Part shown: piece by piece, positions 18,087-33,780 of the stretch
Layout: the number at the start of each line of letters is the position of its first letter
How positions within the stretch are numbered: position 1 is the stretch's first letter
Origin: a virus
IMG/VR virus record: IMGVR_UViG_3300030098_004662
Span: 1-33,780 of that record
Direction: 5' to 3' (one strand)
Length of the DNA stretch: 33,780 nucleotides
The notes under the pieces: generated by a model
Database searches by the model: none
What the model was told of the DNA's origin: nothing
The model's input: the letters and a program-made list of their open reading frames with translations, nothing else
Position numbers and translations under genes: made by a program

Positions 18087-18656
18087 GTGCCGCTAACAAC
18101 AACAGAAGTTACGATTTGTAACTCTGCTCTTATTAAGTTAGGCGCAGAGAGAATCAACTCCTTAGACGAAACAAACAAACGAGCAAGACTTTGTAACGAA
18201 CAATACTCTAAGTTACGTGACGAAGTTCTTCGTTCACATCCCTGGAACTTTGCAATCAAAAGGGTCGCTCTTTCATCTACAGGTGAAGAACCTTTATTTG
18301 ATTATGACTACGAGTTTACTGTTCCAACAGATGTTTTAAGAGTCTTATCACTCCACGATAAAACAATTAGGTGGAGGCTAGAAGCAGGAAGGAAATTGCT
18401 TGCAGATTCTTCCGAAGTAAAAATTGAATACATTGCCCAAATTACAGCGGCGGCGGAATTTGATACATACTTTGCGGAGGCATTAGCTTTGAGGCTTGCT
18501 TCTGATTTAGCTTATCCTTTGGTGCAAAGTTTGAATTTACAGAACTCTATGCTTCAACGGTATGAACTTCACATGAAGAATGCCAGAAGTCTAGACGCTC
18601 AAGAAGGCACCCCAAATGATTTAATAGACGACTCATGGGTAGAGATTAGACTATGA
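18087..18656 (+). CDS. Tail adaptor protein (tail tubular protein A-like)
   Basis: A 189-residue protein close in size to T7 gp11 (196). The start is GTG 18087 with AGGAG 7 bases upstream. The N-terminal pattern EVTICNSALIKLGAERINSLDE, then LCNEQYSKLRDEVLRSHPWNFAIKR, is characteristic of podovirus adaptor proteins that ring the portal and hold the nozzle. A beta portion (EFTVPTDVLRVLSL) and a helical end follow. The stop overlaps the nozzle gene start by four bases (ATGA), so the two partners are translationally coupled. Confidence 0.92.
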   Translation: MPLTTTEVTICNSALIKLGAERINSLDETNKRARLCNEQYSKLRDEVLRSHPWNFAIKRVALSSTGEEPLFDYDYEFTVPTDVLRVLSLHDKTIRWRLEAGRKLLADSSEVKIEYIAQITAAAEFDTYFAEALALRLASDLAYPLVQSLNLQNSMLQRYELHMKNARSLDAQEGTPNDLIDDSWVEIRL

Positions 18657-21600
18657 AGTATCGGGTAATACAAAATGCTTTTATAAGTGGGGAACTCAGT
18701 TCTAAACTTGATGCCCGTACTGATATAAAAGAATATAAAACAGGGGTGGCTCAACTAGAAAACTTCTTTGTCAGAAGACAGGGGGGAGTTTCACGCCGTC
18801 CTGGTTTTAAACACGTAGCGGATTTTAGTTCGATAACCTCGACAGCAAAATTAAAATTACTTCCTTTTATTTACAGTAAAAACGAAGCCTATGTAGTTGC
18901 AATCGAAGTTGTTTCAGTTGATAGCATTAAAATAAAAATCTATAACAATGCTGGGACTAAAGTATATGATACCGCTACAACAATAGGTGCTGCAAGCGGC
19001 GCAAACGCTGCACGAGGTTTGCCTAATTTAGATGAGGCAGCTTACGGGTTTAATGGAATTCAGTCTGCTGACGTAATGTTTTTAACTCATGCCGAAGGAG
19101 TTATGAAACCTTTGGTAATTGCTCGAACTGCATCGGATACGTTTACAGTTACTTCTTACCTAACCTATTATTTTAGTTCTACTCAAGAGTGTTTGGCACA
19201 TCCATTTCAAGATACGAATGTTAACCCAGATTTTAGAATTCTTTGGGCCGGAAACGAAGATGCGTCTTATGGTGAAGACATTACCTTTGATATGTACGAC
19301 ACAACTGGCGGCTCGACTGCTACAGATAGGCAGCCTTTCTTTAGGGCAAACCCAAGGGCAGGTCATCATGGCACTCTTGTAAGGGTAAATTCTGCAACGA
19401 AATCTTTTATTGCCCAAATAAAAACGGGGACGGATGGAATCCCTGCGGTTGATGGTCTTACGATTGCCTCTCATGAATCAGGTAATGTTCTTAGGCTATC
19501 AGGTACATGTAATTTTCAAGTTAATGATGTTGTTACTTTTACAGGGACTTCATCTCAGATACCTACAAATATAACTGCAAGCCAAGAATATTATGTTAAA
19601 ACGGTTTCAGGTACTGACATTACTATCTCTGAGACTAGGCAAGGAACAACTGTGGTACCTTCAGGGAATACAGGGGCAACTTGCAATATAATCAAAACCA
19701 GTTTGGTAAACGCAGATTTAATCGTAGATACTGACTCAGGAATTTCTCCTGCTTCAGTAGATAATTGGGCCATAGGAAGCTGGGGTAATTATCAAGGTTA
19801 TCCTAGAACTGTTACAGCTTTTGAACAAAGATTAATCTGGGGTGGATCTATTCAACAACCCGATACAGTTTGGGGGAGTCTGTTAGGCAATATGTTCCAT
19901 ATGATGGAAGAAAGGCTTGATCAAGACAAGAATGATACTGCAGATGCTTCGGGAATGAACTTCTTTGCCGCAAGCGTACAGGCTACAGATCCTTTTCAAT
20001 TTACTTTAGCAGCTCAGGAAGTAAACGCGATACAATGGATGTCATCGCAAAGAGGTATTGAAGTAGGGACACTCGGCGCTGAATATATAATTTCAGGCGG
20101 CGACAATGCTATTAGTAGTTCAAACGTGCAAGTCCAAGTCCAGACAAACCACGGAGGGTCGTCTGTTCGTCCTGTAAGGGTTGCTAGAGGTACTTTGTTT
20201 GTTTCTAGAGATGGGCAGTTAGTTAGGGAGTTTAAATATAATAATGATGAAGGTTCATATATTACTCAAAACTTTTCAATAACTTCAGATGAAATTATTC
20301 ACCATTTATTTACGGATACTGCTTCTTATGCTGGCACTAAAATTTTGGACATGGCTTATCAAAACTCCAGAGGAATCCTCTGGTTTGTCACCAGTAACAA
20401 TGCCCTCGTCGGAGTCACGCTTGATGCAGATACAGGAACAATAGCGTGGCACAGACACACTCTTGGAGGCACGGATGCCGCCGTTCAAGGTTTATGTGTT
20501 ATCCCTAATAGTGATGGTACATTTGATGATCTTTATATTTCTATTAAACGAACTATAGACGGTGGGAATAAGTGGTACTTAGAAAAGATTGGTGACGACT
20601 TTGAACACACGCTATTAAAAAATGTTAGTACCAGTGATGATGATCAACCTTATTTTTCTGATTCAAGTTTAAGAATTAAGCTTGCGGATCAGACATCTTC
20701 GATTACTCATTCGGGGGTAAGCACTGGATCGGATACAATTACTTTTGGTTCTAATCACAATCTGGGAACGGGAACTAAATTTAGGTTCAGTGCAGTTGGT
20801 GGTACGCTTAGTTGGCAACTTCAAACTAGTAATGCTTTCACTGCAAATGCCTCTAATGAGCAGTTAACATTTGTTCAAGATCATGGCTTGGCAGTAAATG
20901 ATTTGTTAAGGTTTTCAACTTCAAATACATTGCCAGCAGGTCTTTCAACGGGTACAGATTATCAAGTAAATTCGGTAGTTAGTTCTAAAATTATAACAGT
21001 GAAGGCATCAGGTGGATCAGCTATTAATATCACTGATACGGGAACAGGTATTCATAGGCTTATCAAGCGCGCTGATGTTGCTACCTCCATTGATTATTAT
21101 TGTGTGCGCCATAGTGCTACTGCGATTAAAATAGCTATAAACGCTGAAGATGCTTTTAATAATAACTATGTGGATCTTATTACAACAGGATCAGGAACAC
21201 ATACTATTGCGCCTTCAGAGGGTTGGCTTATTGGCGGCTTAGCACATTTAGAGGGTGAAGAAGTTGAGGTGCTTGCTGATGGCTTTCATGAGCAAGATGG
21301 GTTTATTCCTAGTCCATTGCAATTTATAAATAGTGCTATAAGTGATAATAGTGGGTTGCAGATTGCACTGCCTGACCATAATTTATTCCCTGGTACGAAG
21401 GTGCAATTGGCATCTTCAACAGGCACGTTGCCTACAGGGTTGTCGGCAGATACAGATTATTATGTGAACTGGGTAAGTTGGGATGCTATAAGATTGTCTA
21501 CTACAGAAGCAGGTGCGCTTGCAGGGACAGGGCTTATTGCTCACAATGCAGGGGCTTCTAGTACCACTTATACAGTTTACCCTATGTCTAGCCCTATGAG

Positions 21601-22024
21601 AGTTAAAGATGGGATGGTAGGCATTAGACCTACTTACTCAGCAGGAGGGGCAATTACGGGTGCAATTACAGAAGCAATTGTAGGAATTAAATATATATCT
21701 AAATTAAAAACTATGAAGCTAGATGCTGGCCAAGAATTTGGGACTTCTCAAGGGAGTTTGAAAAGGAACGAGGCAGTTATTCTTAAGTTCCACAAAACGT
21801 ATGGTGGAAAGTTTGGGACTGCTAGTGACGAATCAAATTTAGAAGAAATTGTTTTTAGGGAAGCAGGTCATGGTATGGGGTCGGCATTAACTTTATTTAC
21901 TGGGGATAAATATTTAGATTTCCCTGGTACAGCAGAAAGGTTCTTTCAGGTCGTTGTTCACCAGGATAAACCTTTGCCTATGTCTCTTCTTGGTATTATT
22001 CATAGAGGGGTGACGTATGATTAA
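18653..22024 (+). CDS. Tail nozzle protein (tail tubular protein B-like) with inserted beta repeats
   Basis: 1123 residues, against 794 in T7 gp12. The N terminus (NAFISGELSSKLDARTDIKEY, then LENFFVRRQGGVSRRPG) and the middle (YPRTVTAFEQRLIWGGS, then QWMSSQRGIEVGTLGAEYII, FVSRDGQLVREF) are those of podovirus nozzle proteins, whose beta-propeller platform forms the distal tail tube. The extra length comes from about four copies of a 70-80 residue beta module (consensus around H.L..GT...F, LP.GLS..T.YYV, G.GTH.I) near residues 268-345, 694-720 plus 808-852, 737-803 and 901-975. The third appears inserted into the second. These modules likely decorate the nozzle and may touch fibres or the cell surface. 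Confidence 0.93.
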   Translation: MKYRVIQNAFISGELSSKLDARTDIKEYKTGVAQLENFFVRRQGGVSRRPGFKHVADFSSITSTAKLKLLPFIYSKNEAYVVAIEVVSVDSIKIKIYNNAGTKVYDTATTIGAASGANAARGLPNLDEAAYGFNGIQSADVMFLTHAEGVMKPLVIARTASDTFTVTSYLTYYFSSTQECLAHPFQDTNVNPDFRILWAGNEDASYGEDITFDMYDTTGGSTATDRQPFFRANPRAGHHGTLVRVNSATKSFIAQIKTGTDGIPAVDGLTIASHESGNVLRLSGTCNFQVNDVVTFTGTSSQIPTNITASQEYYVKTVSGTDITISETRQGTTVVPSGNTGATCNIIKTSLVNADLIVDTDSGISPASVDNWAIGSWGNYQGYPRTVTAFEQRLIWGGSIQQPDTVWGSLLGNMFHMMEERLDQDKNDTADASGMNFFAASVQATDPFQFTLAAQEVNAIQWMSSQRGIEVGTLGAEYIISGGDNAISSSNVQVQVQTNHGGSSVRPVRVARGTLFVSRDGQLVREFKYNNDEGSYITQNFSITSDEIIHHLFTDTASYAGTKILDMAYQNSRGILWFVTSNNALVGVTLDADTGTIAWHRHTLGGTDAAVQGLCVIPNSDGTFDDLYISIKRTIDGGNKWYLEKIGDDFEHTLLKNVSTSDDDQPYFSDSSLRIKLADQTSSITHSGVSTGSDTITFGSNHNLGTGTKFRFSAVGGTLSWQLQTSNAFTANASNEQLTFVQDHGLAVNDLLRFSTSNTLPAGLSTGTDYQVNSVVSSKIITVKASGGSAINITDTGTGIHRLIKRADVATSIDYYCVRHSATAIKIAINAEDAFNNNYVDLITTGSGTHTIAPSEGWLIGGLAHLEGEEVEVLADGFHEQDGFIPSPLQFINSAISDNSGLQIALPDHNLFPGTKVQLASSTGTLPTGLSADTDYYVNWVSWDAIRLSTTEAGALAGTGLIAHNAGASSTTYTVYPMSSPMRVKDGMVGIRPTYSAGGAITGAITEAIVGIKYISKLKTMKLDAGQEFGTSQGSLKRNEAVILKFHKTYGGKFGTASDESNLEEIVFREAGHGMGSALTLFTGDKYLDFPGTAERFFQVVVHQDKPLPMSLLGIIHRGVTYD

Positions 22025-22651: not shown

Positions 22652-24940
22652 ATGCCAAAAATACCTACATTAGAAAGACAATCCCCTGGAGCTAGACCTA
22701 TTTTAATGGACGTAGACCGAGGGGGGTCCGGTCGGGCGGCAAGAGCCGAGGGAGATGTTGCGCAAGCACTTGGTAAAACAGTTGTTAAGATTGCGGAGTT
22801 ATTTGGTAAAGAAGATCAAGATGCTAAGAAAAATAGAATTAATTCTGCTACAAATGCAGGGTATACTCACATTCAAAACATTGCTTATGAAACACAGACT
22901 AGGGAAAGTAGTGGGAGAGGGACTTATCAATACTATGATAAAGGAACTTCTGATGAGAGCATAAATAAAATTTTAGACGAACATACATTTCAGGACGACG
23001 ACGAAAGGAAGGAAGCTTTTAATAGTATAGTTGCCGTAAGGAATAGTGTTCGTGGCAAAACGATTATGCCTTTGGCTGTTCAAAACGCGATTATTCTTAG
23101 AACAAATCAAATGGAAAAAAAGGCAAATGCCTTAACAGAAAAGATTCCTGAGTTTGGGATATATGCTAATCCTTTGTATTTACCTAAGCTTGAAAACGGG
23201 GAATATAAAATCCCTAATTTATCTGACCAGTTACAGAAAATTATTGATTTTGGTAGGGGTGCTCCTGACGGGAAGGGTGGATTTAAACCTAACTATCTTA
23301 CTGAGCTTGAATTTCAAGAGTCTAAAGATCAGCCGTTTTTTTCTTTTTTAGATTTTGATAAGGTAGAGGAAAAAGGCAAAGTTAGGTATAAAGTTTCTTT
23401 TAGTGGTGACTATGCCAACATGACTCCCCAACAAATGGATAGGATGAAACGTGCTCTTAGCCACAAAATTTTAGATAAGTTATATAATCATGCGGAAAGT
23501 TTTATTAGTCAGGCAGAAACTCAGGAAGAATTAGAGAAGTTCGATAAAAAAGTTAAGATCCCAGGGATCGATGAGGAAACAAACCAACAGGCATGGCAAG
23601 AAGTTAAGATAAAAAATCCTATTACAAATAAAACCGAAACCTTGACGACTATAGGTTATTTGGAGCAATTACTTTCCGCAAACAGAAAACAACTTGAAGT
23701 AAAAATTAAAGGCGAAAAAACTATATATGATAATTTAAGCACTAAAATATTTGCCTTGCGTGAGAAATATAATAGCCGAATGGATAAGATCCTTAAAGGA
23801 AAACCAGGGGAAAAATTAAAACGGGCCAACACTTTTTATGGTGAGTTGTTTCAAAAGCAGGATCGGCTAGAAGCCTTGGATGCGCAGATTAAAACAAAGG
23901 GCCGTGCTGCTGGGTTTGAAACAACAAGAGATGATAAAGGCGCAACAATAGATGAGTTAAGTAAATGGCGTAAAGAAGCATTGACAATAAAAAACGAAAT
24001 ACACGGTATGGTTAGAAATTTTAACGGGAAACATTCGGATGTGGTAAATTTTCGTACAGCAGAAGGCGTGTACACTGCATTTAAAAAAACCTATGCGGAT
24101 AAATATGTAAATATTCTTATGCGTGAAGTAGATGATTTGTATGAGACATTTGGAGGCAACGTAAAACCAAATGAGTTACAGCGATTCGATCGAAAGTTTA
24201 ACGAATACGTGTCCTCGTTACCAATAGCGCATAGGAAATCAATTGTAGCTTACAAAAGAACAATGGAAAAGGGGAACTTGCCTCCTGGTTATAGGACTAA
24301 AGCGACCGCAGCTTTAGAACATTTATGGACTAATAGATTTAGGCGACCCCTAAAAGTTCTTCGTGATGAAGCAGGACCGGATGTTGTGTTGTTTGGTAAG
24401 ATGAAAATGGAATTTTGGAGAGTTGCTAAAGAAGGGGTTAAGAAAAATAATGCTTGGGTGGTTAGACCTAATTACCAATCAGAACCTCAAGACGTAATGA
24501 AACATTTAAAAACTACGATATCAAATAGAGAAGGGGACACCCCAAGTTATATAGATAAAGAATTACAAAACGAACAGGAATTAGCTGTAATTAAAGTAAA
24601 GAACAGATACCCTGAATTAATTAAAAAAGATGGGTTTCCTGGGTTATATGAAGCTTTGCAAGCTTATGATAGCAATGATCCACGAGAGTTTAAAAAAGCA
24701 TCTAGGAAACTCCGATCAAATATTATGGCTTTTCGAAGATTGTATCCGCCTAAAGGTCAGAAACAGCAGCTTAGATATCGGGGCGAAATAAAGTACGATC
24801 AAAAATTTCTAGGTAGAATGAGAAAAATGAATCGAAAAAGAAAACAGTTCGGGACTTTTAATTGGAAAGTATTTGTTGAATCTGTAAACAATATGATGAT
24901 AGGTATTACTGTTCTTGGTAAAGCTCAAGCAAGGGATTAA
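22652..24940 (+). CDS. Internal virion protein, T7 gp15-like
   Basis: 762 residues against 747 in T7 gp15, in the matching position. The N terminus (ERQSPGARPILMDVDRGG, then ARAEGDVAQALGKTVVKIAE) resembles ejection proteins, with a short Arg/Gly segment before a helical start. The rest is charged and helical, without membrane segments, and includes several predicted long helices (for example 330-470) as expected for the tubular periplasmic part of the ejectosome. The C terminus is strongly basic (LGRMRKMNRKRKQFG), which would suit contact with packaged DNA. Overall sequence identity to T7 is not evident. The call rests on order, size and composition. Confidence 0.78.
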   Translation: MPKIPTLERQSPGARPILMDVDRGGSGRAARAEGDVAQALGKTVVKIAELFGKEDQDAKKNRINSATNAGYTHIQNIAYETQTRESSGRGTYQYYDKGTSDESINKILDEHTFQDDDERKEAFNSIVAVRNSVRGKTIMPLAVQNAIILRTNQMEKKANALTEKIPEFGIYANPLYLPKLENGEYKIPNLSDQLQKIIDFGRGAPDGKGGFKPNYLTELEFQESKDQPFFSFLDFDKVEEKGKVRYKVSFSGDYANMTPQQMDRMKRALSHKILDKLYNHAESFISQAETQEELEKFDKKVKIPGIDEETNQQAWQEVKIKNPITNKTETLTTIGYLEQLLSANRKQLEVKIKGEKTIYDNLSTKIFALREKYNSRMDKILKGKPGEKLKRANTFYGELFQKQDRLEALDAQIKTKGRAAGFETTRDDKGATIDELSKWRKEALTIKNEIHGMVRNFNGKHSDVVNFRTAEGVYTAFKKTYADKYVNILMREVDDLYETFGGNVKPNELQRFDRKFNEYVSSLPIAHRKSIVAYKRTMEKGNLPPGYRTKATAALEHLWTNRFRRPLKVLRDEAGPDVVLFGKMKMEFWRVAKEGVKKNNAWVVRPNYQSEPQDVMKHLKTTISNREGDTPSYIDKELQNEQELAVIKVKNRYPELIKKDGFPGLYEALQAYDSNDPREFKKASRKLRSNIMAFRRLYPPKGQKQQLRYRGEIKYDQKFLGRMRKMNRKRKQFGTFNWKVFVESVNNMMIGITVLGKAQARD

Positions 24941-24942
24941 TT

Positions 24943-27900
24943 ATGGTTATGGAAGTGGACACAATACCTTTTAGACCTACAGAAGAGGAAGAAAGAGAAG
25001 AACCTTTTTTTCTTTTTGGTCAAGAAGCTATTGATGATGACGAAGAACAACAAATAGAAATCCCGTATAGATCAGAAACCCCTATTACTCCTGCCCAAGA
25101 AAAATTGGATGACAATGCACTAATGAGATATATCGGGGACATAGATCCAATAGAATTTGACGAGCAAGATAGAAACGAGTTGTCTTCTCGAACTAAGCAA
25201 GCATTGCAATGGATTGAAAAAGGTCTTGGTGAAAGAGGTACAAAGCTTTCAGGTGTAATAAAAAACGCCTTACACAATGTTCCTCATGAAGATTTTGAAA
25301 CTATGGAGACTATGCTGGAGTCAGCATATAACATAACAGAATTTTTCCAAGAGCTTCCTGAATCGACAGCTGACGTAGCTTTTAGAATTGGTGATGATCT
25401 TGTCAATGCTTACAGTGCGGTTGTATTTCATGCTTCTGGTTTGGGGTTTATGTATGAAGAACAGTCTAACCTTGACGATTTAATTCCTGATTCAGAAAAC
25501 CCTATTACTAAAATTTATAAAGAGATGGGGGAGTGGTACGGTAATTACGTATTAGCAGGGAAAGTTTTTGGTGCCAGTGACAAGTTAATTAATTTAAAAG
25601 ACCTTGCGATTCTTTCGCCAATAGCAACCTATTTGTCTACTGATGCATCTGAAGAAGATATGTTTAGTATGTATAATGCCCACCCAGTTTTAGGGAAATA
25701 TGCTACTGAATGGAGAGAATTAGGTGCTGATGGGGGTGGGGTAATTAGCCCTGCGGTTGTTCGAAAATTTAAACAGACAATGGTCGAAGAACTTTTAGGC
25801 TTAGGATTGCTTGCAGGTGGAGGTCTTGCGTTTAAGACTGGCGCGGTTGCAACAGGAGCAGCTAAAAAGAATGTTGAGAAGCTCGTCGATTTTACTGTAG
25901 AAAGATTTAAAATTATGGACGCAAAGGCGATGTTGGATGACATCAAATATAAAGCGCACCAAATGCAGGATGCTGACAATCAATTAGCTTATGCCCTTGA
26001 TGAGGAAGGGGCGTTATTTGCTGGCCATGAAAAAAGAGTTCAATTAATAAGCACAGGCAATTTTGAATTAGCTGATGATTTCCCCCAATTAGAAGTTGGC
26101 AAGGGAATAGATGATCCTATCGAACAACAAGCAGCAAAAGATATTTTAGATAATCCAGAAAATGGACAGCTTAGAGAAGCGGTTGGCAAATTAAATAATC
26201 CTGAAGCAACTAATAAAGACCAACTTCGACAAGAAATGGCAGACGCAATTAATTCTCTTGATCTTATGGTAGCTCCTGGATTAAAGACAGATCCTAAATC
26301 TTTTAATGTCCAACCAGTACCCCAAAAATTTGTGGAAGATACTATCAATTATGAGACTTATCTTCAGATGAGAAGGAATATAATTGAACAAGGGGTTAAA
26401 AAAAGCGAGTTCCATTTAAAGCCTAAAGGAAAAAGTGACCCTGCTAAACCTGAACCAGATCATGAAAATGTAACTTTTTCCGATAAACCTTTGCAGCGGT
26501 ACGAATCTAAGCGAACAGATAATTACATGACTGTTACCAATAAAGGGCTTATTGTAAAAGCTAGGGAATTTAGGGATGTAAAAGATTTTAAAAAAGCTGT
26601 TAGTGAAGGAACTTTTTCTCCAATTATTGATAGTCAATACAGCACTATCTTTGAAAAGAGTGTGGAGAATGAGCGGAGAGGTAGAGTTAGTTTAGATGTA
26701 GTCAGGCATTTTGCAGACACTATCGGTTTGAATAAAGACGAAGTATTTAAATTACTAAGAGATCGTCCTCAAGGTCAAGCTCTTACTAACGAAGAAGTTT
26801 TTGTTTCGGAAAGAATTATTGTTGGCCACATAAAAGATTTAGACCAGCAAATAAAATCTCTAATGAAACGTGATCCTGAAACAGGGATGCAGAGTGCGCG
26901 GATTGCTGATGCAGAAATCTTAGAAGTTATGGATCAGATTGATGACTTGTACGAAAATATTATCCCTAGTTTTTTGGCAGGAGTAAGCGAGTCTGCCCGT
27001 GCTATGCGAACTTTTGCTTTAGTTAAAGGCCCTCAAATGAGGAGAAACGCGCGCCATATGTCTATGCGGTTGCAAGCGTTGGGTGGGTCTGAAAGTGCTA
27101 GGACGAGGTTGGCTGTATTTAGCCAATTAGTTGATAATGGCGATCTTGCTGTTGCCCATAAAGTTGCAAGGAATGGGTATGGGAATCTTTTAGACAGGTT
27201 GTTTAATGTTGGCATCCAACTTAGAGCAAACAATTTAGTTTCTTCAACGTATTCTTTAAGTAAAAACTTTCTTTCTGGTGTAGCCATGACGGCTAAATAT
27301 GTTACTGACCAAGCTGTAGAACCGTTAATAACTTTATTTAGTAAAAATAATTATGAGCTTCCTCCAGGGGCAGCGTTTGGGAGAGCTTCACTTTATGATT
27401 ATGTTGGGCTTATTAAAGGGTTTACTCACGCAATGTCTGAAGCTACTTCGATGTTTGGGACTCATGCGAAACATTTGTTTAATATTAAAGAAGGGCCTAA
27501 ATCTTTCTTTGATCCTCAATTTACTAGGCTTGGTCCTGAATCAACGATGTTTAATCGGATGTCTCCAGATAGGGTGGCAGAAAAAAACGTAAGTAAGTCA
27601 TTTCAACAAAACGCTAATACAGGCATGGCTGAAAACATGGTCCGGTTTATTGAGCTTATGGCGGAAGTTGCTTCAATAAAGTATGCAGGGTTTAAAGCTC
27701 AGATGATGAACGACGAAGTATTTAAAACTTTTGTAAGTACGTTACATTACCACTTGCTTGCAGGAAGAGAAGCCGGAAGAAGAGTGGGGTTTAATAAAAA
27801 AATAAAAAATCCACAAGCTTTAGATTGGGCAGCCGAATACAAAAACATTTTAGATAATCCTGATTCAGACGCAGCCGTAGAAATGATGCGTGAATCTATG

Positions 27901-29748
27901 AACAGGGGGAGAGAGGTTACATTTACTCTCCCTATTATTGCGGAAACTGCGCCTACATTACACAAGTTATATACTGCACTTATTCGAAGTGAAGGATCTC
28001 CAGCTTTAAGAAAACTTCAGACATTAATTATTCCCTTTGCTACCCCTTCTTTTAATATGGCAAGGGCTGCGGTTTCTTCAAATTTATTTACTGGTAGGAT
28101 TTGGAGGGTAGCTAACAGCAAAGGATTATGGCCAGAAAGCAAGTTAATTCTAGATCAGAATACAACTGACCATATGTTAGCTCAAGAAATTTCAGGAAGC
28201 TTTTGGATAGGGTCATTAATATATTGGGCTGGTGGTAACAAGTTAGTCACTGGTTCTCCTGAAGATGATCCGGCTCAAGAAAAATTAAGGCGTGAAGCTG
28301 GACTTTTACAACCTCATGAAAGCTTGGGGATTGCTCAAAAAGAGGACGGGGTTGTTAAATGGTATGATATAAGCCAAGTAGATATGATTGGAAGGCAAAT
28401 TATTTTGGCTAAAAATCTAAGCAACGCTTTTCAAAGGATGACTTACGATGAAGTAAGCCAGTCAATGACTTATTTGGCTAAAGCTATAGGTCGGTATGTT
28501 ACCCCCGAACTTTTCTTTGATATGTTTTCAGCAGGGAAAGCAATTACAGAGGCGATTAGTGCAGAACTTCCAGGCAATAATCCTAAAGGTGAAGGCAACC
28601 AAAAATTAAAAAAATGGCTTGCAGGTGCGATGGCTCAAACATCAGTACCTTTTTATAGTTTTTGGAAAGAGCAACGGAAAGCAAATAATTTAGACGTATT
28701 GCAGATGGGTGGTGGGGCTAAAGTTGAGAACATAGAAGAGTATCAGTACCATCAAAAATATTCAGATGATGATTTACCGGAAATCTCACAAATTGAAAAA
28801 GGCGTGGGCATTATGGAAATGTTTGCTAACCAATTAAATGAGGTGCTTGGCAAACCAGAGGAAGTTCCTTCTAAACCCAACATATTTGGGGACGCGATTC
28901 TAATGCCCTATCATTCTGCCGCTTTAGAAATTACTTTTGAGATGCCCGATATTGTTTCTGCTTTGTTAGAAGGTCTTGAAATAAGTGCAAGCCGAATAAA
29001 CATGGGTAAATTTGTTCCTGCTATTGAGGGAGACATTACCAATATATGGAAGACAGGACAGTATAGAGTTGGATATGACGAACAATGGCTAGGAGAAGGT
29101 GGTCTTGGTAGTGCAGTTATGGATGTTGATCGTAGAGTTGATTTAGATACTCTTGCTGAAAATATTGTCAAAACAACTGAACGATTGCACCCTAAACTTA
29201 TTAATAAAAATAATCGTACCAAAAAAATAATGCAGGCGCGTGTGTATTTGGAATTAGAAGCTTTAAGGGCTGCGGATACTAGGCTTACGGGGGAAGCTTC
29301 TACAATTAGTTCGTTAACAATTTCAGATAGGCTGCCTATTAGAGGGTTTGAATATGCCAACGAAAGGGACACTATTACTTTGCACCCCAGAGATTATGCG
29401 GAACTAGTTAAAACAATGAATAGACCAGGATTAACTTTTAATACATTTTCTGATGAACTAATAGAAGCTATAGGCCGCAACGATTTTAATGTTTATGCAG
29501 AAAAAGGTACGTATTTAAATGCATTACACGATATGATTACTTCTGATTATTATGGGTCTTTAGGATTTGAGAGAAATCTTAGTCCTAAAACTTTATTTGA
29601 AAGGTTGCGGAAAGTTCAACGTGATTATTTAAAAATGGGAAGGGAAGCGTTTGTTAGAGATAAAGCAGATATTTTTAATGAGATGCAAGAGACTTTAGAT
29701 TTGGAAAGAGTATATGAGAACACTGAAGTGAATAGGAACATGAGGTAG
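24943..29748 (+). CDS. Large internal virion (ejection) protein, T7 gp16-like position
   Basis: This is the largest complete gene, 1601 residues (T7 gp16 has 1318). The N terminus is very acidic (EEEEREEPFF and DDDEEQQ). A hydrophobic Gly/Ala-rich stretch at about 282-306 (LLGLGLLAGGGLAFKTGAVA) could cross a membrane, and another weakly hydrophobic part lies near SFWIGSLIYWAGG. I do not see the E-S...GxxQ pattern of a lytic transglycosylase that T7 gp16 carries at its N terminus. The rest is long-helical. It should form the inner-membrane end of the DNA ejection channel. ATG 24943 is followed by a second ATG at 24949. Either may serve. Confidence 0.78.
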   Translation: MVMEVDTIPFRPTEEEEREEPFFLFGQEAIDDDEEQQIEIPYRSETPITPAQEKLDDNALMRYIGDIDPIEFDEQDRNELSSRTKQALQWIEKGLGERGTKLSGVIKNALHNVPHEDFETMETMLESAYNITEFFQELPESTADVAFRIGDDLVNAYSAVVFHASGLGFMYEEQSNLDDLIPDSENPITKIYKEMGEWYGNYVLAGKVFGASDKLINLKDLAILSPIATYLSTDASEEDMFSMYNAHPVLGKYATEWRELGADGGGVISPAVVRKFKQTMVEELLGLGLLAGGGLAFKTGAVATGAAKKNVEKLVDFTVERFKIMDAKAMLDDIKYKAHQMQDADNQLAYALDEEGALFAGHEKRVQLISTGNFELADDFPQLEVGKGIDDPIEQQAAKDILDNPENGQLREAVGKLNNPEATNKDQLRQEMADAINSLDLMVAPGLKTDPKSFNVQPVPQKFVEDTINYETYLQMRRNIIEQGVKKSEFHLKPKGKSDPAKPEPDHENVTFSDKPLQRYESKRTDNYMTVTNKGLIVKAREFRDVKDFKKAVSEGTFSPIIDSQYSTIFEKSVENERRGRVSLDVVRHFADTIGLNKDEVFKLLRDRPQGQALTNEEVFVSERIIVGHIKDLDQQIKSLMKRDPETGMQSARIADAEILEVMDQIDDLYENIIPSFLAGVSESARAMRTFALVKGPQMRRNARHMSMRLQALGGSESARTRLAVFSQLVDNGDLAVAHKVARNGYGNLLDRLFNVGIQLRANNLVSSTYSLSKNFLSGVAMTAKYVTDQAVEPLITLFSKNNYELPPGAAFGRASLYDYVGLIKGFTHAMSEATSMFGTHAKHLFNIKEGPKSFFDPQFTRLGPESTMFNRMSPDRVAEKNVSKSFQQNANTGMAENMVRFIELMAEVASIKYAGFKAQMMNDEVFKTFVSTLHYHLLAGREAGRRVGFNKKIKNPQALDWAAEYKNILDNPDSDAAVEMMRESMNRGREVTFTLPIIAETAPTLHKLYTALIRSEGSPALRKLQTLIIPFATPSFNMARAAVSSNLFTGRIWRVANSKGLWPESKLILDQNTTDHMLAQEISGSFWIGSLIYWAGGNKLVTGSPEDDPAQEKLRREAGLLQPHESLGIAQKEDGVVKWYDISQVDMIGRQIILAKNLSNAFQRMTYDEVSQSMTYLAKAIGRYVTPELFFDMFSAGKAITEAISAELPGNNPKGEGNQKLKKWLAGAMAQTSVPFYSFWKEQRKANNLDVLQMGGGAKVENIEEYQYHQKYSDDDLPEISQIEKGVGIMEMFANQLNEVLGKPEEVPSKPNIFGDAILMPYHSAALEITFEMPDIVSALLEGLEISASRINMGKFVPAIEGDITNIWKTGQYRVGYDEQWLGEGGLGSAVMDVDRRVDLDTLAENIVKTTERLHPKLINKNNRTKKIMQARVYLELEALRAADTRLTGEASTISSLTISDRLPIRGFEYANERDTITLHPRDYAELVKTMNRPGLTFNTFSDELIEAIGRNDFNVYAEKGTYLNALHDMITSDYYGSLGFERNLSPKTLFERLRKVQRDYLKMGREAFVRDKADIFNEMQETLDLERVYENTEVNRNMR

Positions 29749-29751
29749 AAT

Positions 29752-32700
29752 ATGACGATATCATCAGACGTAGTTAAAAACACTTATGCAGGTAATGGCG
29801 CGACTAAAGATTTTGCCATTACGTTTACTTATTTTGATAACTCTGAACTCCTGGTGTATCTAAGAACAGATTCTACTGGAGCTGAAGTGTTAAAAACTCT
29901 CACTACCCATTATACGATTAGTGGTAGTCCAGGTAGCTCCCCAATTATTTCAATGGGTACTGCTCCTGCAAGTGGTGAGACTCTCCTTATAAAAAGAAAT
30001 GTACCGTTTACCCAGCTAACAGATTATACCGCTGGGGATGCGTTTCCTGCTGAAAGCCATGAAGCTGCTTTGGATAAATTAGCGGCATTATGCCAGCAAC
30101 TCAAGGAAACTTTGAGTCGAACATGGACGTTCCCTAATACTTATACAACCTTGAGTGATGTCCAGATGCCTGTCCCTGCTAATGATGGGATTATTAAGTG
30201 GAATGCAGATGCCACAGCTTTGGTAATGGACACTGACCTTGTTAACTCCACCTATAAATTGTATGCAACCAATACTTCAGATACTACGGCAGGGTTTTTA
30301 AACGACAAACTATCAGTTGGCACTGGTCTTTCTAAATCAGCTTCTACAACTGGCAACCAACAAGTCACTTTATCTGTAGATCTTAAGGATGAGGATGATA
30401 TGTCATCCGATTCTGCAAGTCACGCAGCCTCTCAACAATCTATTAAAGCTTACGTTGATGCGGTTACAGCTTCACTTGATGCCCAGGATTTAGATGTTAC
30501 TAGTGATAGCGGCACTATTGACGTTGATATAAGTAGTGAAACCCTGACCATTGCAGGTGGAGAAGGGATAGATACTTCTGCTACAGGCACGACTGTCACT
30601 ATTGCAGCAGAGGATGCCACTGATTCTAATAAAGGTGTGGCAAGTTTTAGCACAGATAATTTTGCTGTATCCAGTGGGGCAGTCACTATTAAAACTGGTG
30701 GTGTTGATAACGATGAACTTGCAGGAAGTATTGCTGCTTCCAAACTCGCTGGCAGTATCCCTGATTCTAAATTAAATACTATTTCAACAGCAGGTAAGGT
30801 TGATATTGGAGCACTAGAAATAGATGGTGCTACGGAAATGGGCGCAGCGATTGTCGATTCGGATTTACTTATTATTGATGACGGTGCTAATGGTACTGAA
30901 AAGAGTATGCTTGCTTCTAGGATCCCCACGTATGTTTTTAGTAAGACATCGGGAGATGTTTCGATTGGATCGGATGGAACAGCTGCCATTGGTTCAGGTG
31001 TTATTGTAGACGCTGATGTAAAATCAGACGCTGCGATTGCTCAGTCTAAACTTAATCTGAGTATTACTAATTCAGAAGTAAATGCTTCTGCTGCTATAGC
31101 GGATACAAAATTGGCCACAATATCTACTGCCAATAAAGTAGACATTGGGGCATTAGATATAGACGGTGCCACAGAATTGGGTGGGGCTATAGAAGACGCT
31201 GACAAACTTATTATAGATGATGGCGGCGGAGGCACCGAGAAAAGTTTGCTTGCATCAAGAATTCCTACCTATACTTTTAGCAAAGTTACAGGGGATGTTA
31301 CGATTGGTTCCGATGGAACTTCAGATGTTGGTGCAGGTGTGGCATTAGCAAATCCAAGTGTTACTGATTATATGGAGCTTGATCACCAAGGGTCAGATGC
31401 AGCGGCTCCTGGTGGCAATGATGTCAGGTTGTATGCAAAGAGTGGAAAAGTTTACACACGTAGTGCTACAGGCATCACGGAACTTGGAGCAGGCGGTGGT
31501 GTAGGAAGTATTGATACCCTCTTTACCATTCAAGCTAAAAGTGCTGATGCCGATAATTCGGGTGAAGGTAACGATGCGGTTTTTCTTGGTGGGGGAACCT
31601 TATCCAATGGTGATGTTACTAGGCACACTACTGCTGCGGATTTAATTGGTTCAGAAAAAGTATTTAAATACGATACAACTGGAAACTCTATTCGGAACTA
31701 TTGGTATCACGAAGAAACAATCAACTCTGGTTATGCCGGAAAGAACATGGTCCTCCAATTACAGTACTATACTCGTAACGGTGGGGATGGGGAAAGCTTT
31801 CGGTTCGTTGCCAGAGATGGGACTAAGCCTATTCTATCGGTAACGGCAGATGGCACTAACACTATTACAGGTACGGTAGATGCGAATTGTGGGACAGCGG
31901 CAGAAGTTGGCGATAGGATTATATTTAAAGATTCCAGCAATAATATTTATTATAGATACATTACAGCTATTGTAAAAAACTCTGGTACAGATGGGAAAAC
32001 CCTAAACGATAACATGACCTATACTTATTCGGGGTCAGACATTACTGCAACTGGAAAGGTTGTTACTGGGGTTATGACTGATGAGTTAGATTACCTACCT
32101 GCCAATGATACTACTGGTAACGAAGCAAAAACCTATAGAAAACAAATGTCTTTTTCTGCTAACTGTACCACCCTTCAGTTTGGTTTCCATTGCCTAGATA
32201 CTGACACTGATGTTGAACTCTACTACGATGACATCGCTTTATCTGCCAACCAATTTTTGCAGACTAGTAGTCAGGGGATGAGTGAGTGTTATATCCAAAA
32301 CGATATAGCAAATTTTTGGGATGGGACTGGAACCCAATATACTTTTGATGCTTCTCTGTTAGATCCACAAAATTCAGCTACCCCGACTTTGGCTAATAGT
32401 AAGCTTGTAACTGTAGCAGATCAATCATCTGGGGGGACGACTAGAACGGTTATAAAAGCTAAACAAAACATTATTTTAGATGTAAGCGCGTTTAGTGAAC
32501 TTACTGCTGATTATGTTTTTGGTATTTATGACTCCTCAGATTCGCGAATTCTAGGGAATCAGCACAACTCTAGTGGGGCTATGAATATTGCATCTATAAA
32601 CATAGCTTTAGATAAAGATGATTACATCTATTTTGCAGTAGAAGCTCATACACGAGATGGGGGGATGGTAATCACTGCTACCCCTCAAGTGAACGATGTG

Positions 32701-33780
32701 GTGCTGCTCAATTCCCAAGATGAGATCTTTACGGACTGGGTGGACTATTCCAGTGAGTTAAGCGCAACAGGTCCGGCTAACGCTACCAACACAGGGACGA
32801 CAGGAACCTATGGTGGGAGTGTAATTAACAAAGCGTTTTGGCGTAGGGTAGGCGGCGAAATGGAAGTTAACTATAGCTTTCAACAGGCTTCGGCCGGTGG
32901 AGCGTCCACAGGAAAAATTTGTATTCCTTTGCCAAGCGGATATTCTATAGACATGAGTAAGTTGGATACTAGTGGGGGTGGTACTAATTATTCTCACGCT
33001 CAGGTAGGCACGGGGGTGTGGTCTAACAATGCCGATGGAGTTAGTGGGGCTACAGGTCCATTGATATTTGCGGTTAACTCCGCTTTAGCTACAGGTGTTT
33101 TCTGGGCTAACTTCAATTTAAGCTCTGATGTGGCAGCCTCGATGGCTTGGGGTGAAGGAGCCAATGGGAATACTTTTAACAATTGCCTTGTTTTAAAAGG
33201 AAGTTTTAAAGTTCCCATCGCAGGTTGGACCTCCACTTTCAATCCAGTCCTATCGATGCCGTTGGTGGATATAGGCGCTGATATGGAACAGTATAGCGTA
33301 TCAGGTTGGGATGGTTCTAATCAGTACGGTCTTTACACGGCTGAAACTGACTCGTGGAATACTTTAGATAAATTAGCTTCGGTGGATAAAGGAACTTCTA
33401 GTGGAAATATTTTTGCTATTACTGCTTTACAACGAATAAAGATAGAATTTTCTTTTTGGTATGCAGGTAATGGTCATGCCGCTTATACCGGAGCATTAGC
33501 AGGAAACCCTAGTTCAATCCCTGCAAAAACAGTCAGTATGACGGATGCCTCCGTTTCTCAATACATGGTTGCCGCTCAATACCCAAGTTCTGGGGAGCCT
33601 CAAAACTGTAGTGGTTCTGTAATTTTAGAGCCAGGCCAAGTTTTACAACCTAGAACATCTCACACTGGCGCACCTTACACCGAGCCTGCAAATGGTGGCT
33701 TTAGTTGTACTGTTACTAGAGATCGAAGCCACACTAATATGGCCCACATTATTAAGCCTGCGGTTTGCATTGTAAAAAAT
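29752..33780 (+). CDS. Tail fibre protein, T7 gp17-like N terminus (3' end outside window)
   Basis: From ATG 29752, three bases after the previous stop, the frame is open for 1343 codons to the window edge. Residues 1-125 match the T7 gp17 N-terminal tail-attachment domain: KNTYAGNGATKDFAITFTYF, LLIKRNVPFTQLTDY, then AFPAESHEAALDKLAALCQQ. Next comes a repetitive Ser/Thr/Asp/Gly-rich shaft in which a unit starting KVDIGAL at residues 349 and 462 is repeated with a 113-residue period. After about residue 590 the sequence is beta-rich with several possible carbohydrate-binding-like modules. The receptor-binding tip may extend beyond the edge. Cysteines are few. Confidence 0.92.
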   Translation, partial: MTISSDVVKNTYAGNGATKDFAITFTYFDNSELLVYLRTDSTGAEVLKTLTTHYTISGSPGSSPIISMGTAPASGETLLIKRNVPFTQLTDYTAGDAFPAESHEAALDKLAALCQQLKETLSRTWTFPNTYTTLSDVQMPVPANDGIIKWNADATALVMDTDLVNSTYKLYATNTSDTTAGFLNDKLSVGTGLSKSASTTGNQQVTLSVDLKDEDDMSSDSASHAASQQSIKAYVDAVTASLDAQDLDVTSDSGTIDVDISSETLTIAGGEGIDTSATGTTVTIAAEDATDSNKGVASFSTDNFAVSSGAVTIKTGGVDNDELAGSIAASKLAGSIPDSKLNTISTAGKVDIGALEIDGATEMGAAIVDSDLLIIDDGANGTEKSMLASRIPTYVFSKTSGDVSIGSDGTAAIGSGVIVDADVKSDAAIAQSKLNLSITNSEVNASAAIADTKLATISTANKVDIGALDIDGATELGGAIEDADKLIIDDGGGGTEKSLLASRIPTYTFSKVTGDVTIGSDGTSDVGAGVALANPSVTDYMELDHQGSDAAAPGGNDVRLYAKSGKVYTRSATGITELGAGGGVGSIDTLFTIQAKSADADNSGEGNDAVFLGGGTLSNGDVTRHTTAADLIGSEKVFKYDTTGNSIRNYWYHEETINSGYAGKNMVLQLQYYTRNGGDGESFRFVARDGTKPILSVTADGTNTITGTVDANCGTAAEVGDRIIFKDSSNNIYYRYITAIVKNSGTDGKTLNDNMTYTYSGSDITATGKVVTGVMTDELDYLPANDTTGNEAKTYRKQMSFSANCTTLQFGFHCLDTDTDVELYYDDIALSANQFLQTSSQGMSECYIQNDIANFWDGTGTQYTFDASLLDPQNSATPTLANSKLVTVADQSSGGTTRTVIKAKQNIILDVSAFSELTADYVFGIYDSSDSRILGNQHNSSGAMNIASINIALDKDDYIYFAVEAHTRDGGMVITATPQVNDVVLLNSQDEIFTDWVDYSSELSATGPANATNTGTTGTYGGSVINKAFWRRVGGEMEVNYSFQQASAGGASTGKICIPLPSGYSIDMSKLDTSGGGTNYSHAQVGTGVWSNNADGVSGATGPLIFAVNSALATGVFWANFNLSSDVAASMAWGEGANGNTFNNCLVLKGSFKVPIAGWTSTFNPVLSMPLVDIGADMEQYSVSGWDGSNQYGLYTAETDSWNTLDKLASVDKGTSSGNIFAITALQRIKIEFSFWYAGNGHAAYTGALAGNPSSIPAKTVSMTDASVSQYMVAAQYPSSGEPQNCSGSVILEPGQVLQPRTSHTGAPYTEPANGGFSCTVTRDRSHTNMAHIIKPAVCIVKN
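30688..31357 (+). repeat. Tandem 113-codon repeat in the tail-fibre shaft
   Basis: Two adjacent copies share KVDIGAL(E/D)IDGATE(M/L)G, LIIDDG, GTEKS(M/L)LASRIPTY, FSK, then GDV(S/T)IGSDGT, with KVDIGAL at 30796 and 31135. They are preceded by degenerate 'SKL' segments. Silent differences are many, so the duplication is old rather than recent. Such units are typical of trimeric beta-helical fibre shafts. Confidence 0.75.

Follow-up and report, generated by a model that had tools for sequence, protein, structure and literature searches.

A T7 gp12-like nozzle gene and its neighbours

The analysed stretch of DNA (here called the window) comprises the 33,780 bases of an IMG/VR virus record. Its genes follow the podophage order of terminase, portal, capsid, adaptor, nozzle, gp14-like protein and gp17-like fibre. 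The product of ORF 18653-22024 is a T7 gp12-like tail nozzle by sequence profile and fold. It matched phrog_376 at 1.5e-107 with the sequence profile and the Carin-1 tail nozzle (PDB 8ck1) at 3.3e-32 by single sequence and 4.5e-192 by family profile. The core of the AF2 model aligned to the Carin-1 nozzle with a Z score of 36.3 over 629 residues and to T7 gp12 with a Z score of 27.4; the fibre-dock segment of this model is of low confidence. These profile matches and fold comparisons confirm the assignment as a T7 gp12-like nozzle, which an earlier inspection of the letters (the sequence-only reading) had proposed. The coordinates of the nozzle gene, its parts and two neighbouring tail genes are given in Table 1.

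Table 1. Position of the nozzle gene, its modules and two further tail genes in the window
Feature	Position	Strand	Residues	Basis and remarks
Adaptor-type tail protein (tail tubular protein A-like)	18087..18656	+		phrog_394 4.1e-57; phrog_9239 'tail tubular protein' 2.3e-21; directly 5' of nozzle gene
Tail nozzle protein (T7 gp12-like, tail tubular protein B), 1123 aa	18653..22024	+		phrog_376, PDB 8ck1, predicted fold
Module 1, T7-tip-equivalent segment	19445..19702	+	265-350	HMM 278-341, 31.9 bits, i-E 4.7e-12
Module 2, first half	20699..20818	+	683-722	HMM profile 3-35 at 685-719, 14.4 bits, 1.3e-6
Module 3, complete, inside module 2	20822..21076	+	724-808	HMM profile 2-79 at 726-804, 65.9 bits, 1.2e-22; AF2
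Module 2, second half	21077..21223	+	809-857	HMM profile 41-78 at 811-852, 14.2 bits, 1.6e-6
Conserved GLxHLEG element of nozzle core	21239..21292	+	about 863-880	directly after nested pair
Module 4	21323..21592	+	891-980	HMM 900-972, 50.6 bits, 7e-18
Tail fibre gene, T7 gp17-like N-terminal anchor	29752..33780	+		phrog_1640 9.8e-32 (residues 1-130); truncated by window end

The tail fibre gene also matched PF03906 with an E-value of 0.0014, under Pfam's curated cut-off. In T7, the fibre dock of gp12 is the partner site of the gp17-type fibre anchor found here. Two large ORFs after the gp14-like gene (22652-24940 and 24943-29748) had no PHROG match and no Pfam match over the curated cut-off; by their position they may encode internal virion proteins.

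Insert-free relatives of the nozzle are about 670 aa long and the full-length relatives found range from 666 to 1282 aa; compared with the plain relatives, the window nozzle is about 450 aa longer. An alignment of 86 nozzle sequences showed residues 681-858 and 881-1000 to be nearly empty in the relatives and the flanking core to be filled. The GLxHLEG element was aligned in 0.92 of the relatives, with H865 to G868 nearly invariant. The longest relative (L048, 1282 aa) carries several hundred additional residues early in the chain without a module match.

Four related modules in two segments of the nozzle

The sequence-only reading had placed about four copies of a module between 19454 and 21577, which corresponds to residues 268-975 of the ORF. 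We searched the protein with a module HMM (profile length 83) made from 62 modules of other phage proteins, leaving out this protein and its close relatives. The search detected four related modules and thus bears out an enlargement of the nozzle by about this number of copies. The E-values in Table 1 are those of a one-sequence search; across all window ORFs both halves of module 2 reach about 2e-4. The signature motifs quoted for the copies (H.L..GT, LP.GLS..T.YYV and G.GTH.I) hold in part: module 1 is divergent and lacks them, and module 4 lacks G.GTH.I. Pairwise identities among the four modules are 15-29%, so the copies would be old or separately acquired. The flanking halves of module 2 share 23% identity with module 3. 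Module 3 did not arise as a recent copy of module 2.

The propeller was located through WD40 proteins, whose alignment to the nozzle model covers about residues 48-652. In T7 gp12, blade 3 of the propeller harbours the tip as an insertion, and the C-terminal platform is connected to the propeller through the fibre dock, which lies at the outer surface (PMC6702177). Mapped by homology and order along the chain, module 1 would belong to the T7-tip segment and modules 2-4 to that of the fibre dock; the inserts are confined to these two segments. In the Carin-1 nozzle (8ck1), the position before HLEG carries a separate insert of about 85 aa, in which no similarity to the modules was detected. Another relative (L009) has a lectin-like Laminin_G_3 domain at this position (residues 664-794, 3.7e-6, at Pfam's cut-off score).

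Module 2 is split around module 3

The two halves of module 2 flank the complete module 3 and complement each other to about 5 profile positions. The inner copy had been placed at 737-803; it is indeed complete, but its bounds are about 724-808 instead. Excision of 87 residues (cuts near 719-727 and 806-814, the best score over all cut pairs scanned) joined the halves to one continuous match over profile positions 3-78 with 47.7 bits. By themselves the halves scored 22 and 20. In 2000 trials, joining one half to shuffled or unrelated sequence never gave more than 33.0 bits; the maximum for unrelated pairs was 5.5.

A contig of another metagenome (L001), whose nozzle is 74% identical, has the halves in the identical order. 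The halves of the two proteins share 90% and 71% identity, with dN/dS of about 0.14 and 0.17. This identical layout speaks against misassembly of the nested block, which we therefore rejected. The complementary HMM halves and the splice test uphold the claim that a complete copy 3 interrupts copy 2, and we consider the nested architecture of the window nozzle very probable on this sequence evidence.

The same order (N-N-C-C) could also arise from two half-module duplications. The block would then be a linear array, with duplicated or truncated half modules on both sides of module 3, and these halves would be remnants without a joint fold. We regard this as very improbable: the halves fit each other to about 5 profile positions, are conserved in L001, evolve under constraint and are not specially similar to module 3. 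A linear array would agree with our failure to find an un-nested ancestor, as searches for un-nested relatives of module 2 yielded only L001 once more and a fragment that stops short of the module. In bacterial and archaeal genomes, scanning detected distant nozzles, none of which was flagged as nested.

Predicted fold of the modules

AF2 prediction of residues 676-858, supplied with an alignment of 41 un-nested homologues across module 3, gave pLDDT values above 90 for module 3 and of 40-66 for the halves of module 2. Full-length prediction with 42 relatives produced a good core; the modules, outer halves included, were mostly under pLDDT 50, and nesting could therefore not be judged from that model. 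When un-nested homologues were added for the outer module, 1 of 120 aligned across the split and most others aligned to module 3, so that a fair alignment for module 2 was not obtainable. The sequence-only reading had proposed structure prediction as a check of its claim. The check speaks for the autonomous folding of module 3, which the model supports as a barrel of its own, and did not show a joint barrel of the copy 2 halves. That AF2 does not pack these halves together would also suit a linear array. As AF2 does not settle the outer halves, nesting in the window nozzle rests on sequence, from which we infer that the halves of module 2 fold jointly.

Structural comparison of the module 3 model revealed similarity to the FCCH domain of the Uba6 E1 enzyme (Z 9.3, rmsd 2.1, 76 residues), to the endosialidase barrel (Z 7.6) and to the insertion barrel of the LKA1 tailspike (4ru4; Z 7.2). 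At the sequence level, Pfam E1_FCCH (PF16190) gave zero matches for the window modules, Pfam End_beta_barrel (PF12195) scored module 3 at 18.8 bits, below its gathering cut-off of 35, and none of the solved structures matched the module profile with a convincing E-value.

Nesting in other marine nozzles

A rule-based scan for nesting covered 3,587 distinct ORFs of the fetched loci. Sampling was biased, as one scan used a nested query, and we therefore claim no frequency. Nested modules were found in many related marine nozzles, with FCCH-type modules inside FCCH-type modules at two further cut points. For these nozzles the word 'unusual', used in the sequence-only reading, is too strong, given the many nested marine relatives and a precedent in RNA polymerase (PMC11515920).

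In one nozzle (L172, residues 243-402) the outer FCCH-type module matches profile positions 2-48 and 50-76 around an inner match of 3-78. At the same site, with similar flanks, the L040 nozzle has a single uninterrupted module. The outer C-terminal half of L172 is 70% identical to the L040 module, the inner copy 47%; the outer N-terminal half is no closer to L040 than the inner copy (53% vs 60%). A second arrangement is found in the nozzles of L027, L029 and L120-L155, with outer profile positions 2-60 and 62-79 around an inner match of 1-77 and the cut near 57-61. This pair lies directly before HLEG, at about residues 520-860 (varying by locus), and three other loci (L157, L160, L163) have an uninterrupted FCCH-type module at its site. 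Such un-nested counterparts at the same site speak against a linear array. Module 2 of the window is cut near profile positions 36-40 and belongs to the LP.GLS-type branch. The three different cut points argue for at least three nesting events, and nesting would thus have arisen more than once. As two of the three nested arrangements have un-nested counterparts, these nozzles provide a tractable natural series in which to study the origin of insertional domains and the reasons why some loops accept them.

We also observed an apparent nested FCCH-type pair in non-nozzle proteins (L168, L169 and L170; ORF of about 2144 aa); the L168 N-terminus has a weak T4 gp9/10-like match, under Pfam's cut-off. 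In the L158 nozzle (residues 741-912) an FCCH-type module is followed by another inserted domain and a partial FCCH end, which may represent an interrupted module.

Module number and position differ widely among the relatives, and the nested state at the HLEG site showed six gains or losses on the nozzle tree (quick method, some long branches; one class of nesting). Both would fit neutral accretion of an easily inserted barrel cassette whose nested copy has no function. We consider this improbable: the genome is small, the inserts are confined to outward segments, and comparison of the window with L001 shows purifying selection on the modules, with dN/dS values of 0.08-0.35 where measurable and the highest (0.35) in the inner module, values that are rough because synonymous divergence is saturated in places.

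Synonymous codon differences to L001 amount to 35% in the nested block and 50% in the rest of the gene (Fisher p 0.002, in one sequence pair and run after the low value had been noticed). The best low-divergence block is 611-846, which lay above all of 60 permutations. The lower synonymous divergence of the nested block (20699-21223) hints at its movement by recombination.

A putative contact surface on the nozzle

We propose that the gene product forms a hexamer, the tail nozzle of a marine podophage, and that small six-stranded beta-barrels of the E1-FCCH/endosialidase-barrel fold were grafted into two of its outward-facing segments, one barrel in the T7-tip-equivalent segment and three in the fibre-dock segment, which connects propeller and platform. 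One barrel of the latter segment would have taken up another in a loop that reads GTLP.GLS in relatives, which would result in a two-barrel branch. The barrel ends presumably lie close together, so that a loop could accept a barrel without breaking the host fold and a barrel could also enter its own homologue. The modules would then make up a lateral surface, which would either touch glycans or proteins on the host or help to seat the gp17-like fibre. As a whole, this reading of a barrel-grafted nozzle with a nested barrel and a host- or fibre-contacting surface seems reasonably likely.

A contact role is supported by two systems. In KP34gp57 the barrel insertion domain completes the capsule-polysaccharide pocket and mutations there lower the activity (PMC10653864), and in a Vibrio phage a host receptor is bound by the tail tubular proteins (PMC7241545). 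The dN/dS of the inner module, the highest measurable, is a further lead from one sequence pair. The fold also serves non-glycan uses, as in E1 enzymes and the P22 coat I-domain. The modules probably have some role in host or fibre contact; direct host binding, taken by itself, comes somewhat short of an even chance. The gp17-like anchor in this phage would also suit fibre docking, and since in T7 the fibre dock occupies the stretch from propeller to platform (PMC6702177), the fibre-dock modules might seat or space the fibre, or stiffen the nozzle, without touching the host. This is rather unlikely, as many nozzle relatives have no insert there, L009 has a lectin-type domain at the same site and module 1 belongs to the tip segment, at a distance from the fibre dock. 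The 'adhesive surface' on the nozzle suggested by the sequence-only reading is thus reasonable as a putative feature, with fibre docking as a serious alternative.

More speculatively, recursive self-insertion of barrels at several cut points could be a recurrent way of podophage nozzle growth, with the block recombining between phages and the newest inner copy acting as a fast-evolving host-contacting unit. The nozzle architecture raises the question of whether the nozzle, beyond the fibre alone, helps to decide the host of a short-tailed phage.

Comparison with known systems

The window protein shares its core fold with the nozzles of T7 (gp12) and Carin-1, and with them the gene order of portal, capsid, adaptor, nozzle and gp14-like internal protein. 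The fold of the inner module is that of the E1 FCCH domain (PF16190), and the FCCH-type modules of pelagiphage-like nozzles occupy the same insertion segment. In contrast to FCCH-type modules, those of the window belong to the LP.GLS-type branch, have a longer loop at the module 2 cut and stay below the Pfam model. The endosialidase barrel (PF12195), LKA1 gp49 and KP34gp57 likewise have the barrel as an insertion domain of phage host-contact proteins; unlike in tailspike depolymerases, the window barrel lies in a nozzle, is nested, has no catalytic domain and scores under the PF12195 cut-off.

We found no report of nested modules in phage nozzles in the literature searched, in which subscription journals are poorly covered, so this is weak evidence of absence. 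A domain within its own homologue is already known: the HABAS domains of the cyanobacterial RNA polymerase beta-prime subunit (Si3) are recursively inserted into homologous domains (PMC11515920). In the window nozzle, likewise, complementary sequence halves of one module surround a complete homologous module. Proteins usually gain domains end to end, and here a tail-channel protein appears to gain barrels inside barrels. The HABAS domains belong to an unrelated protein, a cellular enzyme, whereas the protein described here is a viral tail protein with cuts at three loops across its relatives.
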